Below are positions 22,453 to 58,419 of a DNA stretch of 64,000 nt, piece by piece. A program made the position numbers and the translations under genes. The notes beneath the pieces are model-generated. The model made no database searches. It was not told the DNA's origin and saw only the letters and a list, made by a program, of their open reading frames with translations. The stretch is from Peptococcaceae bacterium CEB3 (GTDB taxonomy: Bacteria > Bacillota > Desulfitobacteriia > Desulfitobacteriales > Desulfitobacteriaceae): assembly GCA_001029295.1 (NCBI GenBank), contig LDXJ01000055.1:1-64000 (forward strand), read 5' to 3'. Position 1 is the first letter of the stretch; each line of letters opens with the position of its first letter.

Positions 22453-22560
22453 CTCTCTCATCTCTCAAGGACCGTGCCTTGCAGGAATTGGCACCTCTGC
22501 AGCAAATCTGCCGGTTGCCGGGCTTCATCGGGCCAGTCCCTCAGCCGCTCTTGATGAGGA
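22453..22560 (-). ncRNA. SAM-I (S-box) riboswitch, metA leader
   Basis: Reading the minus strand: P1 strand CTCATC, AAGAGCGGCTGAGGGA, CTGGCCCGATGAAGCCCGG, CAACCGG, GGTGCCAATTCC, a P4 arm, and the closing GATGAGAG. These are the conserved S-box blocks in order. With SAM bound, the anti-antiterminator P1 forms and the hairpin at 22404-22433 stops transcription before metA. Confidence 0.95.
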
Positions 22561-22749: not shown

Positions 22750-22878
22750 GGCCCGGGGCGGCGCTCAGGGAGGCCCGGTCCACAGATAAAGAAGAGTGGA
22801 AACAGTCTAAATATTAGCAGGAATTTGCCGGTGGTCGGCGAATTAAAATACTGAATCGGCAGATACAAAACCGGTCAA

Positions 22879-23250
22879 CTACCCCCACTTAACGCATTAA
22901 TCGGCGTTTGAAGTGGGGGCTTGGGGAAACGTGTAAGCCAGGCTTATACGCCCTCAAGCCCGGTTGATTAGCCTCAGTGGTCGGGATGTTTACCGAAAGG
23001 GGACAGCGAACCATTACGTTAAGCCGGAATAGATAGGCACCCTGGGATCCTCCACACGTCCCAGGCTCTGCGGTGAGTGTTTAAACATCTCTGATGGGTA
23101 GGAGAAGTGATGCTCACACACAAACCCGGCATTAACATTGGCAATGTGGACCCACGAGTTTTGGCAGTTCTCGGCTTAATGCACTAAAAACTGCTCCCTA
23201 TTTTGGGGTAGCAACCCGCATTCATCTCCGACTTTAGAAGTCGGAGCCTT
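22879..23250 (+). ncRNA. Large structured gene-free segment; candidate transposon-associated (omega/HEARO-like) RNA
   Basis: No ORF, but dense pairing: CCCCCACTT with AAGTGGGGG (one arm carrying ACGC/GCGT); GGGCTTG with CAAGCCC enclosing GTGTAAGCC / GGCTTATAC; a long-range GGGATGTTTA with TAAACATCTC; CCTGGGA / TCCCAGG; and a terminal CTCCGACTT-TAG-AAGTCGGAG hairpin (23226-23246). End hairpins of this sort resemble IS200/IS605-group element ends and their guide RNAs, but no TnpB or IscB frame is present. Strand is not certain; plus is assumed from the multi-stem layout. It could also be a solitary decayed element. Confidence 0.45.
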
Positions 23251-27275: not shown

Positions 27276-27468
27276 CATAAAAGCGCAGCTATTCCGTAGG
27301 ATTTAGAAAACTTGCGTCAGCCGCCTTGATTCAACCGATCGCTTGCTGAGCGATCGCACCTGCCGAGTTTTCTTAACCCTCCATAAAAGCGCAGATATTC
27401 CGTAGGATTTAAGAAAACTTGCGTCAGCCGCCCGCGCTGACGCTTGGCGCCTGCCGAGTTTTCTTAAC
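27276..27468. repeat. Twin copy of a roughly 90-100 bp palindromic intergenic repeat
   Basis: Copy 1 (27276-27377) and copy 2 (27382-27468) both start CATAAAAGCGCAG, share ATTCCGTAGGATTTA, then AGAAAACTTGCGTCAGCCG, a variable centre, and CCTGCCGAGTTTTCTTAAC. Within each, AAGAAAACT pairs with AGTTTTCTT, so each can fold into a long hairpin whose loop region is the part that differs. The layout resembles a dispersed palindromic repeat family. Confidence 0.85.
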
Positions 27469-27539
27469 TTTTTTGTAACTTTTATTTAAGCATTCTGTAA
27501 GAGATTTTTAAGGTTTTCGGTGTATTCTTATGGTAGTGC

Positions 27540-27812
27540 AGGCTGCGGCTTGTTCGAGAGCATCGATCGAGTGCGGGGTGGCTCATCTCAGTGTGGTGCA
27601 CGCTTGTGTCATTGGCCATGGGACAAGGGGTTGGGAGGAAAGTCCATTCCGGAATTTTGAGGAAGAAAGGAGTGAAAAGCCCGGTTTGCGGCGGCTGAGC
27701 CGTAGAGGATCGGAGGAATCGCTCCGGCAGCAGGGTGGCTGTACGGCCCATACTAAGGTTGGGGTGAGTCCGGTCCTTGTGCCACTGTCTGTCTGGGAGA
27801 CCGGGTGCCGTT
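27540..27812 (+). ncRNA. Structured 5' leader of unknown class before a 42-residue ORF
   Basis: About 270 bases without a credible ORF. It contains GAGGAAAGTCC at 27635-27645 (a block also found in RNase P RNA), several hairpins (CGGC-TGA-GCCG; CGGAG-GAATCG-CTCCG), and a final stem CCGGTC (27770-27775) / GACCGG (27799-27804). That final stem abuts a GGGAG ribosome site (27795-27799) and ends 8 bases before the ATG at 27813, which suggests translational control. GTGCCACTGT in the loop recalls cobalamin-riboswitch cores, but the remaining consensus blocks of either family are missing. Confidence 0.4.
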
Positions 27813-27941
27813 ATGAGCCTAGGATTTTTTTTGACCGCTTCTCTTTTTTCTTTGCTGGGCTACGGACTGTGCTACATCATTATGGTATCGAAAAAAAGCA
27901 ACGAGGACGAGACCCAAGTATCTTTGCCAAAGGTTCCCTGA
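27813..27941 (+). CDS. 42-residue single-helix membrane peptide
   Basis: ATG to TGA frame: a short N-terminus, one hydrophobic helix (FFLTASLFSLLGYGLCYIIMV) followed by KKS and an acidic tail ending LPKVP. This positive-inside pattern is typical of genuine small membrane proteins. GGGTG lies 5 bases upstream and GGGAG 13 bases upstream. It sits between the structured leader and a two-component system. Downstream (27947-28000) another hairpin set is present (CACGAC / GTCGTG around CGTGG-GCTT-CCACG). No family recognised. Confidence 0.5.
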   Translation: MSLGFFLTASLFSLLGYGLCYIIMVSKKSNEDETQVSLPKVP

Positions 27942-28171: not shown

Positions 28172-28870
28172 ATGAGGGAATTCAAACCCAGGGTTCTGGT
28201 GGTTGAGGATGAAGAGCCCATTCGCCGCTTTATAACTCTGAACCTGAATGCGGCCGGCTTTACGGTCAGCGAGGCCGCCAGCGGGGAAGAGGCCTTGTGC
28301 CTGGTTGACAGTTTTCAGCCGAAAGTGGTGGTGCTCGATCTCATGTTGCCGGGAATCGGTGGGCTGGAGGTTTGTCAAAAGATTCGGGAAGAGTTTTCGG
28401 ATATTTTTGTGCTCATGTTGACGGCGAAGGGTTTGGATACCGATAAAATTTTGGGTTTGGAGCTCGGCGCTGACGATTACATGGTCAAACCCTTCAACCC
28501 CCTTGAACTTATCGCCAGGGTCAAGGCGATTCTGCGGCGTACCGCGGGCGCTAAGGAGGGCGAAGGCGTCCTCGTATGCGGCAACATCCATTTAAACATC
28601 CAAGCCAACAAAGTTTTCAAAGAGGATCTGGAAGTCGACTTGACGCCCATTGAGTTTTCTTTGCTCAGAGTGTTTATGGAGAATCCCGGCAAGGCCCTGA
28701 AAAGGGAGGACATGCTCAATTGGGTATGGGGTGAGGATTATTTCGGTGATACGAAAACTTTGGATGTTCACATCCGCCGCCTGCGCGAAAAAATTGAAGA
28801 CAACCCTTCCCGGCCATCCCATATTAAGACCGTCTGGGGTTCCGGTTACCGCTGGCAGCAGGAGCTTTAG
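28172..28870 (+). CDS. OmpR/PhoP-family response regulator
   Basis: 232 residues. Receiver domain with the acidic pair EDEE near residue 12, phospho-acceptor Asp56 (VVLDLMLPG), Thr in MLTAKG and Lys in MVKPFNP. The C-terminal winged helix has the OmpR pattern (LTPIEFSLLRVFMENPGKALKREDML, VDVHIRRLREKIEDNP-like, TVWGSGYRW). GGTGGAGG lies upstream of the ATG. It is co-transcribed with its kinase, whose ATG follows the stop without a gap. Confidence 0.95.
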   Translation: MREFKPRVLVVEDEEPIRRFITLNLNAAGFTVSEAASGEEALCLVDSFQPKVVVLDLMLPGIGGLEVCQKIREEFSDIFVLMLTAKGLDTDKILGLELGADDYMVKPFNPLELIARVKAILRRTAGAKEGEGVLVCGNIHLNIQANKVFKEDLEVDLTPIEFSLLRVFMENPGKALKREDMLNWVWGEDYFGDTKTLDVHIRRLREKIEDNPSRPSHIKTVWGSGYRWQQEL

Positions 28871-30274
28871 ATGAACGGAATCAGGGCAAGACTGACCGCT
28901 AATTTCATGTTCATCATCATCATCACCGTAACTATCCTGGAAATTCTGCTGATTTACGCGGTGCGCCAGAATTTCTACGGAAGTTTGGAAAGCAGCCTGA
29001 CAAACCAGATTAAGATCTCCGCCGATCTCTACGCCAAGTATTTCTCGGACAACTCGTTGCAAGAGAACGTGCTGTACAATGTCGATGCTTTCTGGAACCA
29101 AAGCAATGCTGAGGTAGAGATAGTCGACAAATCCGGGACGATTGTGATGGATTCGCTGGGCATGATCCCGCAGGGGAAAGTGATGGACAAGGACATCGGC
29201 GAAGCTCTTAAAGGCGGAGCAGGGTCCTGGATTGGAACCTTGAACGGGCAAAAGGTCCTCGCGGTTTCTTACCCGTTGAGAGAAGGCCCGAACATCGTCG
29301 GGGCCTTACGTTTTATCAGTTCGCTGCGCGAAGTCGATAAAGATGTGGAAAATACGGCTTCAGTCTTTATTGGCATCGGCTTAGTCGTGATTATGATAGC
29401 GGGCCTCATCAGTGTTTTTCTGGCCAACACAATAGTTGTTCCGCTCCAAGAAGTTACCGAAGCGGCGCGCAAGATGGCGGCCGGCGATTTCAGCATACGC
29501 AGCCGGAAAGTCCGCTCTGATGAGATCGGTAAACTGTCGGAGACACTCGACTATATGGCCCAGGAACTTATAAAAAAGGAGCAGCTTAAGAACGATTTTA
29601 TCTCCTCGGTTTCGCACGAACTGCGTACACCTTTGACTTCGATTATGGGTTGGGCCATTACCTTGCAGAACGAGAATTTCCAAGGTAAGGAGACCCTGAA
29701 CGACGGTCTGGGGATTATTGCCAAAGAAAGCGAGCGCCTTACCCTTATGGTGGAGGAACTTCTGGACTTTTCGAAATTTGTCTCCGGCCGGGTCAAACTG
29801 CAAAAGACCGACACGGAGATGACTTATTTCATCGAGCATATCAAGAAACAGTTGACACCTCGGGCGATCCGGGAGAATATTGACTTCGTTGTCAGCTGTC
29901 CGGAAGATTTGCCGGTTCTTCATACAGATGCCAACCGGTTGAAGCAGGTATTTATCAATGTCTTGGACAATGCCTTTAATTTTACCCCGGCGGGCGGCCG
30001 GGTCACGCTGACCGCGGAAGCGGAGGCAAGGGAATTTATCTTTACCGTGACCGACACCGGATGCGGGATAGCAGCCGATGAACTTCCCAAAGTTAAAGAA
30101 AAATTCTATAAAGGCAGGAGTTCAGGTTCCAAGAACGGCATCGGGCTTTCCATATGTCAGGAAATAGTTACTCTGATGGGAGGCAGATTGGAAATTGCCA
30201 GTCAACTCGCGGCAGGGACCAAAGTCGTTATCAGTATACCCCGAGAGGAAGCATCCGATCGCCGAAGCGTTTAG
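28871..30274 (+). CDS. Membrane sensor histidine kinase
   Basis: 467 residues. Helix 1 (about 10-35), an extracytoplasmic sensor region of about 130 residues with a PAS/Cache-like feel (VEIVDKSGTIVMDSLG), helix 2 (about 160-180), HAMP, then HisKA with His249 (VSHELRTPLTSIMGW) and HATPase_c with N box NVLDNAFNFTP, DTGCGI and GIGLSICQEI. It resembles WalK/ResE/PhoR-type kinases; the signal is unknown. It begins immediately at the response-regulator stop and is followed 37 bases later by a lipoprotein gene that may report to or respond to the system. Confidence 0.93.
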   Translation: MNGIRARLTANFMFIIIITVTILEILLIYAVRQNFYGSLESSLTNQIKISADLYAKYFSDNSLQENVLYNVDAFWNQSNAEVEIVDKSGTIVMDSLGMIPQGKVMDKDIGEALKGGAGSWIGTLNGQKVLAVSYPLREGPNIVGALRFISSLREVDKDVENTASVFIGIGLVVIMIAGLISVFLANTIVVPLQEVTEAARKMAAGDFSIRSRKVRSDEIGKLSETLDYMAQELIKKEQLKNDFISSVSHELRTPLTSIMGWAITLQNENFQGKETLNDGLGIIAKESERLTLMVEELLDFSKFVSGRVKLQKTDTEMTYFIEHIKKQLTPRAIRENIDFVVSCPEDLPVLHTDANRLKQVFINVLDNAFNFTPAGGRVTLTAEAEAREFIFTVTDTGCGIAADELPKVKEKFYKGRSSGSKNGIGLSICQEIVTLMGGRLEIASQLAAGTKVVISIPREEASDRRSV

Positions 30275-58319: not shown

Positions 58320-58419
58320 CTCTCATCTGTTAGGAACAAATCCTACAGGATTTGGCACCATGCTTTCAGCTGGTTGCCGGGCTTCATCGGGCCAGTCCCT
58401 CCGCCACTCTTGATAAGAG
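58320..58419 (-). ncRNA. SAM-I (S-box) riboswitch, orphan copy
   Basis: Minus strand: CTCTTATC, AAGAGTGGCGGAGGGA, CTGGCCCGATGAAGCCCGG, CAACC, GGTGCCAAATCC, P4 arm GGATTTG, then GATGAGAG, which pairs with the first block as P1. All S-box core elements are intact, and it has its own promoter (58452-58480) and terminator, so it should be functional. Confidence 0.95.

Follow-up and report, generated by a model that had tools for sequence, protein, structure and literature searches.

Organization of the locus

The DNA analyzed in this study, referred to as the window, is a 64,000-nt stretch from Peptococcaceae bacterium CEB3. It contains a leader followed by a gene for a small membrane peptide and by the genes of a two-component system (Table 1). 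Between a trypsin-like/PDZ protease gene and the leader, positions 27280-27470 were observed to hold two near-identical units of ~90 bp (..CCGTAGGATT..AGAAAACTTGCGTCAGCC..GCCTGCCGAGTTTTCTTAAC), of which the sister species has three copies.

Table 1. Features of the leader and of the genes following it in the window
Feature	Position	Strand	Remarks
Promoter-like block	27504..27528	+	Just upstream of the leader; 24/25 identical to the sister locus (L004); putative function
First part of the leader	27536..27639	+	No conservation in the sister; probably not part of the functional unit
Decayed tnpB 3' coding end, reading ..KVHSGILRKKGVKS.., SD included	27640..27679	+	Match to the tnpB 3'-end profile and to the UvrD relic
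Upstream SD AAGGAGTGA, proposed 5' half of a split ribosome-binding site	27667..27675	+	tnpB-derived
P1 5' strand (P1a) CCCGGTTTG	27680..27688	+	8/9 positions pairable with 27797-27805
Variable interior from the transposon right-end RNA region	27689..27796	+	Model R1 match over 27663-27805
P1 3' strand (P1b) GAGACCGGG, corresponding to the right end of the ancient element	27797..27805	+	Position matches GAAACCAGG in tnpB-end copies
7-nt spacer	27806..27812	+	7 nt also in 16/31 start-adjacent copies with a tnpB-borne SD, among the matches listed
42-aa membrane peptide gene	27813..27941	+	ATG at 27813; small-protein family, mainly in Desulfosporosinus-type genomes
Response regulator	28172..28870	+	Pfam Response_reg and Trans_reg_C
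Sensor histidine kinase	28871..30274	+	Pfam HAMP, HisKA and HATPase_c

The 42-codon ORF named in a preliminary description of this DNA was present and has the appearance of a genuine gene for a small membrane protein. Its counterpart in the sister species was intact, with 79% identity; the codon changes were synonymous in 8 cases and nonsynonymous in 9, and there was no frameshift. Matches at E ≤ 1 occurred in 12 of 20 genera; the window peptide had no Pfam match, and the relatives from other genera showed no match to the two-component system of the window within ~1.5 kb on each side. The family (27813-27941 and L193-L205) carries the motif F(L/V)TAS.FS.LGYGLCYI, with up to 5 matches per genome. 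Among 13 inspected relatives from other genera, a GGAGG-type SD preceded the start in 10 and a weaker SD in 3 (L193, L197, and L198), as would be expected if an ordinary SD had been replaced in the genus of the window.

The preliminary description had proposed a structured leader resembling a translational riboswitch, with a CCGGTC/GACCGG stem at the ribosome site and two blocks familiar from RNase P and cobalamin RNAs. The two strands, 27770-27775 and 27799-27804, were indeed present, pairable and ending 8 nt before the ATG, and the leader, which can fold, runs into the ribosome-binding region; however, 27536-27815 folded no better than shuffled sequences (z -0.27, with 75 of 200 as good). 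The predicted probability of the stem was 0.10 in 27536-27815 and 0.0-0.01 in four other stretches, and when the stem was imposed on 27660-27850, the energy was 3.8 kcal/mol less favorable than that of the best fold. The helix with comparative support is instead P1, 27680-27687 with 27798-27805; the CCGGTC stem would engage this P1 3' strand in a competing pairing. The extent of the leader, described as starting at 27540, also needed revision: 27536-27639 was not conserved in the sister, whereas ~27640-27812 was. In the sister locus, the relic described below begins ~15-20 nt after the promoter-like block.

Both blocks, GAGGAAAGTCC (27635-27645) and GTGCCACTGT, were confirmed, as was the remark that the leader fits neither RNase P nor cobalamin RNA. 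A covariance-model scan covering RNase P, cobalamin, and raiA RNAs gave no such match, and in Rfam the leader had no match at the gathering score and none at E ≤ 10. By sequence comparison, the RNase P-like GAGGAAAGTCC lies across the 5' boundary of the segment derived from tnpB (resemblance to the UvrD relic starts at 27639), and its origin is thus accounted for only in part. GTGCCACTGT is located, as judged by eye, where the conserved TGCC in P2 of the transposon RNA falls.

Relationship of the leader to IS607-family right ends

When the leader was compared by blast with 61 related genomes, matches were found in two, one at the same locus of the sister species (E 1.4e-32) and one in the window's own genome, upstream of a UvrD-like gene. 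The latter, the UvrD relic, matched the window leader with E values of 3.6e-4 and 1.4e-5 in two comparisons, the similarity spanning 27639-27687, and forms the bridge between the leader and copies bearing tnpB. A profile of the tnpB 3' end, built from 16 of 18 listed sequences, gave 27653-27687 as its top match within the window (E 0.0021) and also matched the sister leader (E 0.015) and the UvrD relic (E 1.3e-6). In tnpB-bearing copies, the segment with the SD and P1a consists of the last tnpB codons; the longer copies sit at the 3' end of a TnpB-like ORF, and the right-end region extends about 230-380 nt past the tnpB stop, ending in ..CAGG. A dispersed repeat or MITE had been considered and was set aside upon recognition of this tnpB 3' end. 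A leader peptide beginning at the conserved motif was also rejected, no conserved start being seen.

The core of the leader, AAGGAGTGAAAAGCCCGGTT, recurred in varied form at 7 places in the genome of the window (G000), against 1 control match, and at 16 places in the sister genome (G001), against 0. Ten of these 16 were the string ACGGAGTAAGAAGCCCGGTT and were dropped because the seven inspected copies were identical over the stretch compared and look like another repeat, leaving 6 against 0 controls in G001; the ten places (including L012, L018, and L020-L024) probably represent another mobile element. The core motif was also found ahead of unrelated genes, and a motif search of 100 genomes produced 21 matches, spread over 11 of them. 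L028, L029, L034, and L035, which look like chance intragenic matches, were dropped, and L030, lying outside the display pattern, was left out. Covariance model R1, prepared from seven hand-trimmed copies with the window excluded, had hits in 25 of 100 relatives with E limited to 0.01; in a search of 82 genomes of the class, 22 were hit at E ≤ 0.001. R1 recovered the window leader (27663-27805) at 27 bits, with E 0.0066 per genome and 1.7e-4 over 139,657 bases; in the 82-genome search the window leader did not reach the E ≤ 0.001 cut.

A complete copy was found at priA in one Desulfosporosinus genome. It comprises an IS607 tnpA (182.5 bits to the IS607 transposase NF033518, cut-off 110), a TnpB-like ORF (34.1 bits to the TnpB-related TIGR01766, cut-off 32), and a right end reading ...ACCAGG. 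Another copy, L032, was damaged, with 163 bits to NF033518 but no more than 151 codons in its tnpB frame. The priA element has AAAGGAGG at its left junction and ..ACCAGG followed by CGTCATA-ATG at its right junction, so that the priA SD, AAGGAGG, is parted from its spacer and ATG and now lies ~2.4 kb upstream of the gene. From 42 priA matches, 18 were inspected and 17 of these lacked the element; all 17 had a purine-rich SD, which was AGGAGG in 14. Comparison of the junctions with these element-free orthologues showed insertion at a GG dinucleotide with no target duplication at the one site checked. According to the available part of PMC6188088, IS607 elements target (G)GG and leave the target unduplicated. 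The window copy allowed placement of the right end alone, and the final GG of its P1 3' strand is expected to be the IS607 crossover dinucleotide.

The lineage shares with IS607-TnpB transposons, as far as these are covered in the parts of PMC6188088 and PMC10711439 available, the IS607 TnpA, the TnpB-like ORF, a structured right-end RNA running to the terminal GG, and insertion at GG. It differs from them in joining the tnpB tip to the element end via P1, in adjoining start codons and carrying an SD at the tnpB tip, and in an RNA that matches no Rfam family, RAGATH-18 included. RAGATH-18 gave no match at E ≤ 1 in 24 family loci or at E ≤ 10 in the leader. The same 24 loci contained, at E ≤ 1, two T-boxes, one c-di-AMP riboswitch, and weak matches to three miRNA models, none of them located in the right-end region; group I introns gave no match at E ≤ 1 in these loci, in which the flanks covered only part of some elements. 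From its position, the right-end RNA of tnpB-bearing copies is assumed to be the TnpB guide RNA (reRNA/omegaRNA). Titles and abstract openings listed from one open-access collection described no IS607/TnpB element with such a ribosome-site layout, and the available part of PMC13418256 uses the relevant terms in separate places, with reference to TldR and fliC.

On these sequence comparisons, the leader from ~27640 to 27806 is an ORF-less relic of an IS607-family right end, made up of the tnpB tip and the right-end RNA region in the position of the guide RNA. Since tnpA and tnpB are absent from the window copy, in which ~14 tnpB-like codons remain, and the genome gave no match to this TnpB family, it was filed as a relic and not as an IS607 element. 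The transposon apparently landed in the ribosome-binding site of the peptide gene, and the insertion would predate the split of the two species of the genus. Loss of tnpA and nearly all of tnpB would then have left the tnpB 3' tip with its SD and both P1 strands around a shrunken RNA domain. The interior keeps UGAGUCC (27765-27771) and TGCC (27780-27783), with P3 and P4 nearly lost as judged by eye; the sister interior retains a small P3-like hairpin, CTTTATCTGTCTAAAG.

Start adjacency and the P1 helix

A search with the TnpB C-terminus detected at least 80 loci (Desulfosporosinus, Pelotomaculum, Desulforamulus, Clostridium, Sulfobacillus, and others). Among the best 80, 56 were scored and 24 were lost, 5 because they had no in-frame stop, 18 because the right-end motif was missing, and 1 because the contig ended there. 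A tnpB tip was counted as carrying an SD at a predicted pairing of -10 kcal/mol or below, and a copy was taken as start-adjacent when an ORF of at least 60 codons began +4 to +13 nt past the element end, the one nearest +7 being chosen among several. P1b positions were set by motif (e.g., L083, L086, L089, and L111). Among the matches listed, 31 of 38 copies with a tnpB-borne SD were start-adjacent, compared with 4 of the 18 lacking one (Fisher p 5e-5), a test that is not independent because the two groups are two clades and some loci belong to the same genome. An earlier subset of 56 of the 80 listed loci, 54 of which were scored, gave 31/38 against 4/16 (p 1.3e-4), and an open tnpB frame of at least 300 codons gave 26/31 against 4/14, again among the matches listed; random positions were start-adjacent in 9.8% and 15.5% of cases. 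Within the listed SD-bearing group, 16 of the 31 start-adjacent copies had the start at +7 nt, and 7 of the 38 were not beside a start of at least 60 codons.

The tnpB-tip SDs of this listed group, defined by the limit of -10, ranged from -10.5 to -16.2 kcal/mol. The SD/P1a string was kept even though it is read in three tnpB registers (18, 11, and 8 of the 38 listed loci, a count in which one locus, L119, was misplaced by the script). In a Sulfobacillus-like clade the SD was absent yet P1 was formable, and therefore P1 also serves the transposon itself.

Covariation in P1 was assessed on 27 of 28 relic rows (L075 being left out) and 18 tnpB-end copies picked as distinct types. In the 40 distinct P1 pairs, 298 of 320 positions paired against a shuffle mean of 0.886, a level reached by 0 of 2000 shuffles; position 5, for example, was G-C in 28, A-U in 4, C-G in 2, G-U in 3, and a non-pair in 3. 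The tnpB-end copies alone paired at 131 of 144 positions, with 1 of 2000 shuffles as good, and the signal was weaker in the relics alone (175 of 184, with 95 of 2000 as good). In the window, the predicted probability of the outer P1 pairs was 0.0 for 27536-27815, 0.96 for 27640-27815, and 0.86 for 27660-27815; longer stretches gave 0.67 (27536-27850) and 0.40 (27536-27941). The non-conserved first 104 nt competed with P1 in one folded stretch. As the probability varies with the stretch folded, thermodynamics neither proves nor excludes P1.

In 28 relic rows, hand-selected because both ends were readable, the SD and P1 persisted and a start lay +5 to +13 nt past the end, although the distance from P1a to the end of P1b ranged from 43 to 378 nt; two FlgB leaders (L027 and L046), with an SD and P1a and no clear P1b, were omitted. 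Searched over 22 nt upstream and 13 nt locally, the upstream SD (-9.2 to -18.0 kcal/mol) was predicted to be stronger than the local site in all 28. This conservation is partly ascertained because most relics were found via a pattern or model containing the SD and P1a. The window and its sister, found with the whole leader, form the sole ascertainment-free pair: identity was 27/29 in SD plus P1a, 78/110 in the interior, and 55/107 upstream. Together with this pair, four orthologue pairs showed 27/29, 20/29, 29/29, and 25/29 in SD plus P1a, above both the interior (78/110, 88/163, 261/338, and 156/301) and the upstream region (55/107, 53/113, 67/111, and 57/116) in 4 of 4. P1b alone was conserved no better than the interior in one orthologue pair. 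One relic set from 8 genomes of a single genus kept the SD, P1, and P3 amid diverged sequence, and P2 covaried by eye. In L013 and L025, repeat units of the GAGAGG..GTCGTCCGCC type seem to have expanded inside the relic.

A proposed split ribosome-binding site and its alternatives

The observed homology, conservation, P1 covariation, start adjacency of many copies, and one verified SD insertion lead us to consider it probable, with some reserve, that the leader is a worn IS607-family relic which inserted into the SD of the small membrane-peptide gene and is now a split ribosome-binding site. Insertion into the SD of the peptide gene itself is deduced. The transposon's own site, cut in two by folded RNA, may have become the replacement for that of the gene: the tnpB-derived SD at 27667-27675 would stand in for the lost native SD, P1 would fold out ~126 nt (27680 to 27805), and the SD together with the ATG 7 nt past P1 would act as one site. 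We infer that ribosomes use the upstream SD, to which the 30S subunit would bind. Its predicted pairing with the anti-SD is -10.4 kcal/mol against -6.2 kcal/mol for a weak local SD persisting by the ATG, and the sister is the same. The distance from the upstream SD to the ATG is about 14 nt plus the helix, and such a distance exceeds the usual optimum. In predicted folds that take in coding sequence, the upstream SD is largely sequestered by a run of pyrimidines within the peptide gene; this predicted pairing, 27667-27675 with about 27835-27850, is a possible regulatory switch.

The same layout occurs in copies that retain tnpB, where it would keep the target gene translated after insertion into its ribosome-binding site. 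Extended to the whole group, the reading has in our estimate slightly better than an even chance: a Firmicutes IS607/TnpB lineage homes to SDs and brings along an SD of its own in the tip of tnpB, P1 rebuilds a split ribosome-binding site so that the target, even priA, is translated, and decayed ends have become domesticated leaders before many unrelated genes, that of the window included. If true, a transposon could, with no need for splicing, settle in regions that control important genes because it supplies a ribosome site in place of theirs, and split ribosome-binding sites would have a natural origin; conserved leaders, moreover, can be decayed transposon RNA regions instead of riboswitches.

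The proposed layout resembles the split site of E. coli thrS, where, in the available parts of PMC3936740 and PMC3858243, a folded element interrupts the ribosome-binding region and need not unfold. In thrS, however, the SD is on the AUG side and the hairpin sets off an upstream standby region, whereas here the hairpin would part the SD from the AUG; those parts of the two papers mention no transposon origin. As in IStrons, which combine an IS element with a group I intron, the device would limit damage to the target gene. According to the part of PMC4227781 available, IStrons splice and 118 of 202 are intragenic, unlike the start-adjacent insertions described here.

The same relic could also be read with initiation at the AGG/GGG left over from the element end 7 nt before the ATG; P1 would then hide that site and lower or regulate translation, the upstream SD being a leftover or a standby site. 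We regard this as unlikely, though it deserves weight: P1b, ~7 nt, and a start make ordinary SD geometry, and the local site reaches -6.2 kcal/mol in the window and is strong in two relics (-8.6 in L013 and -10.6 in L025). Against it, local sites were -4.6 kcal/mol or weaker in 17 of the 28 relic rows, each with a stronger SD upstream, and if hiding the site were all that P1 did, decay of P1 would be expected, whereas the short relics L040, L070, and L071 retain it.

Neutral decay, with the relic functionless and the similarities mere remnants, would agree with the degraded interior and with the discovery of most relics through the conserved motif itself. The contrast between SD plus P1a and the remainder in the window/sister pair makes it improbable. 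Still less probable is that the relics are retained because a TnpB-like protein uses them in trans as scaffolds of its guide RNA (omegaRNA/reRNA). The conserved P3 and the P2 covariation seen by eye in the 8-genome set would suit such a role; however, the C-terminal profile of this TnpB family was unmatched in 8 relic-bearing genomes, including that of the window, while two control genomes matched at about 1e-76, so that a trans guide-RNA role for this TnpB is unlikely there. Moreover, L010, L040, L070, and L071 (69, 43, 71, and 50 nt) are too short for P2-P4.

A ligand-binding translational riboswitch, cobalamin-type or other, is highly improbable: the leader adjoins the ribosome-binding site as in such RNAs, but it matches no Rfam family, descends from a transposon end, varies in interior length, and precedes unrelated genes, which we take from their sequences to encode PriA, a HydG-like protein, UvrD, FlgB, a DUF1015-like protein, and an RND pump. 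The riboswitch analogy of the preliminary description is not supported, given the lack of a family match and the transposon origin.

Two SAM riboswitches lie elsewhere in the window, at 22455-22560 and 58320-58419, both on the minus strand. A relationship of the leader to HEARO was rejected, as the HEARO region and the leader had no common blast match. This HEARO (IscB-type RNA), at 22874-23155, was detected at the gathering score 5' of an AMP-ligase-like ORF and is perhaps a second mobile-element RNA in a leader.
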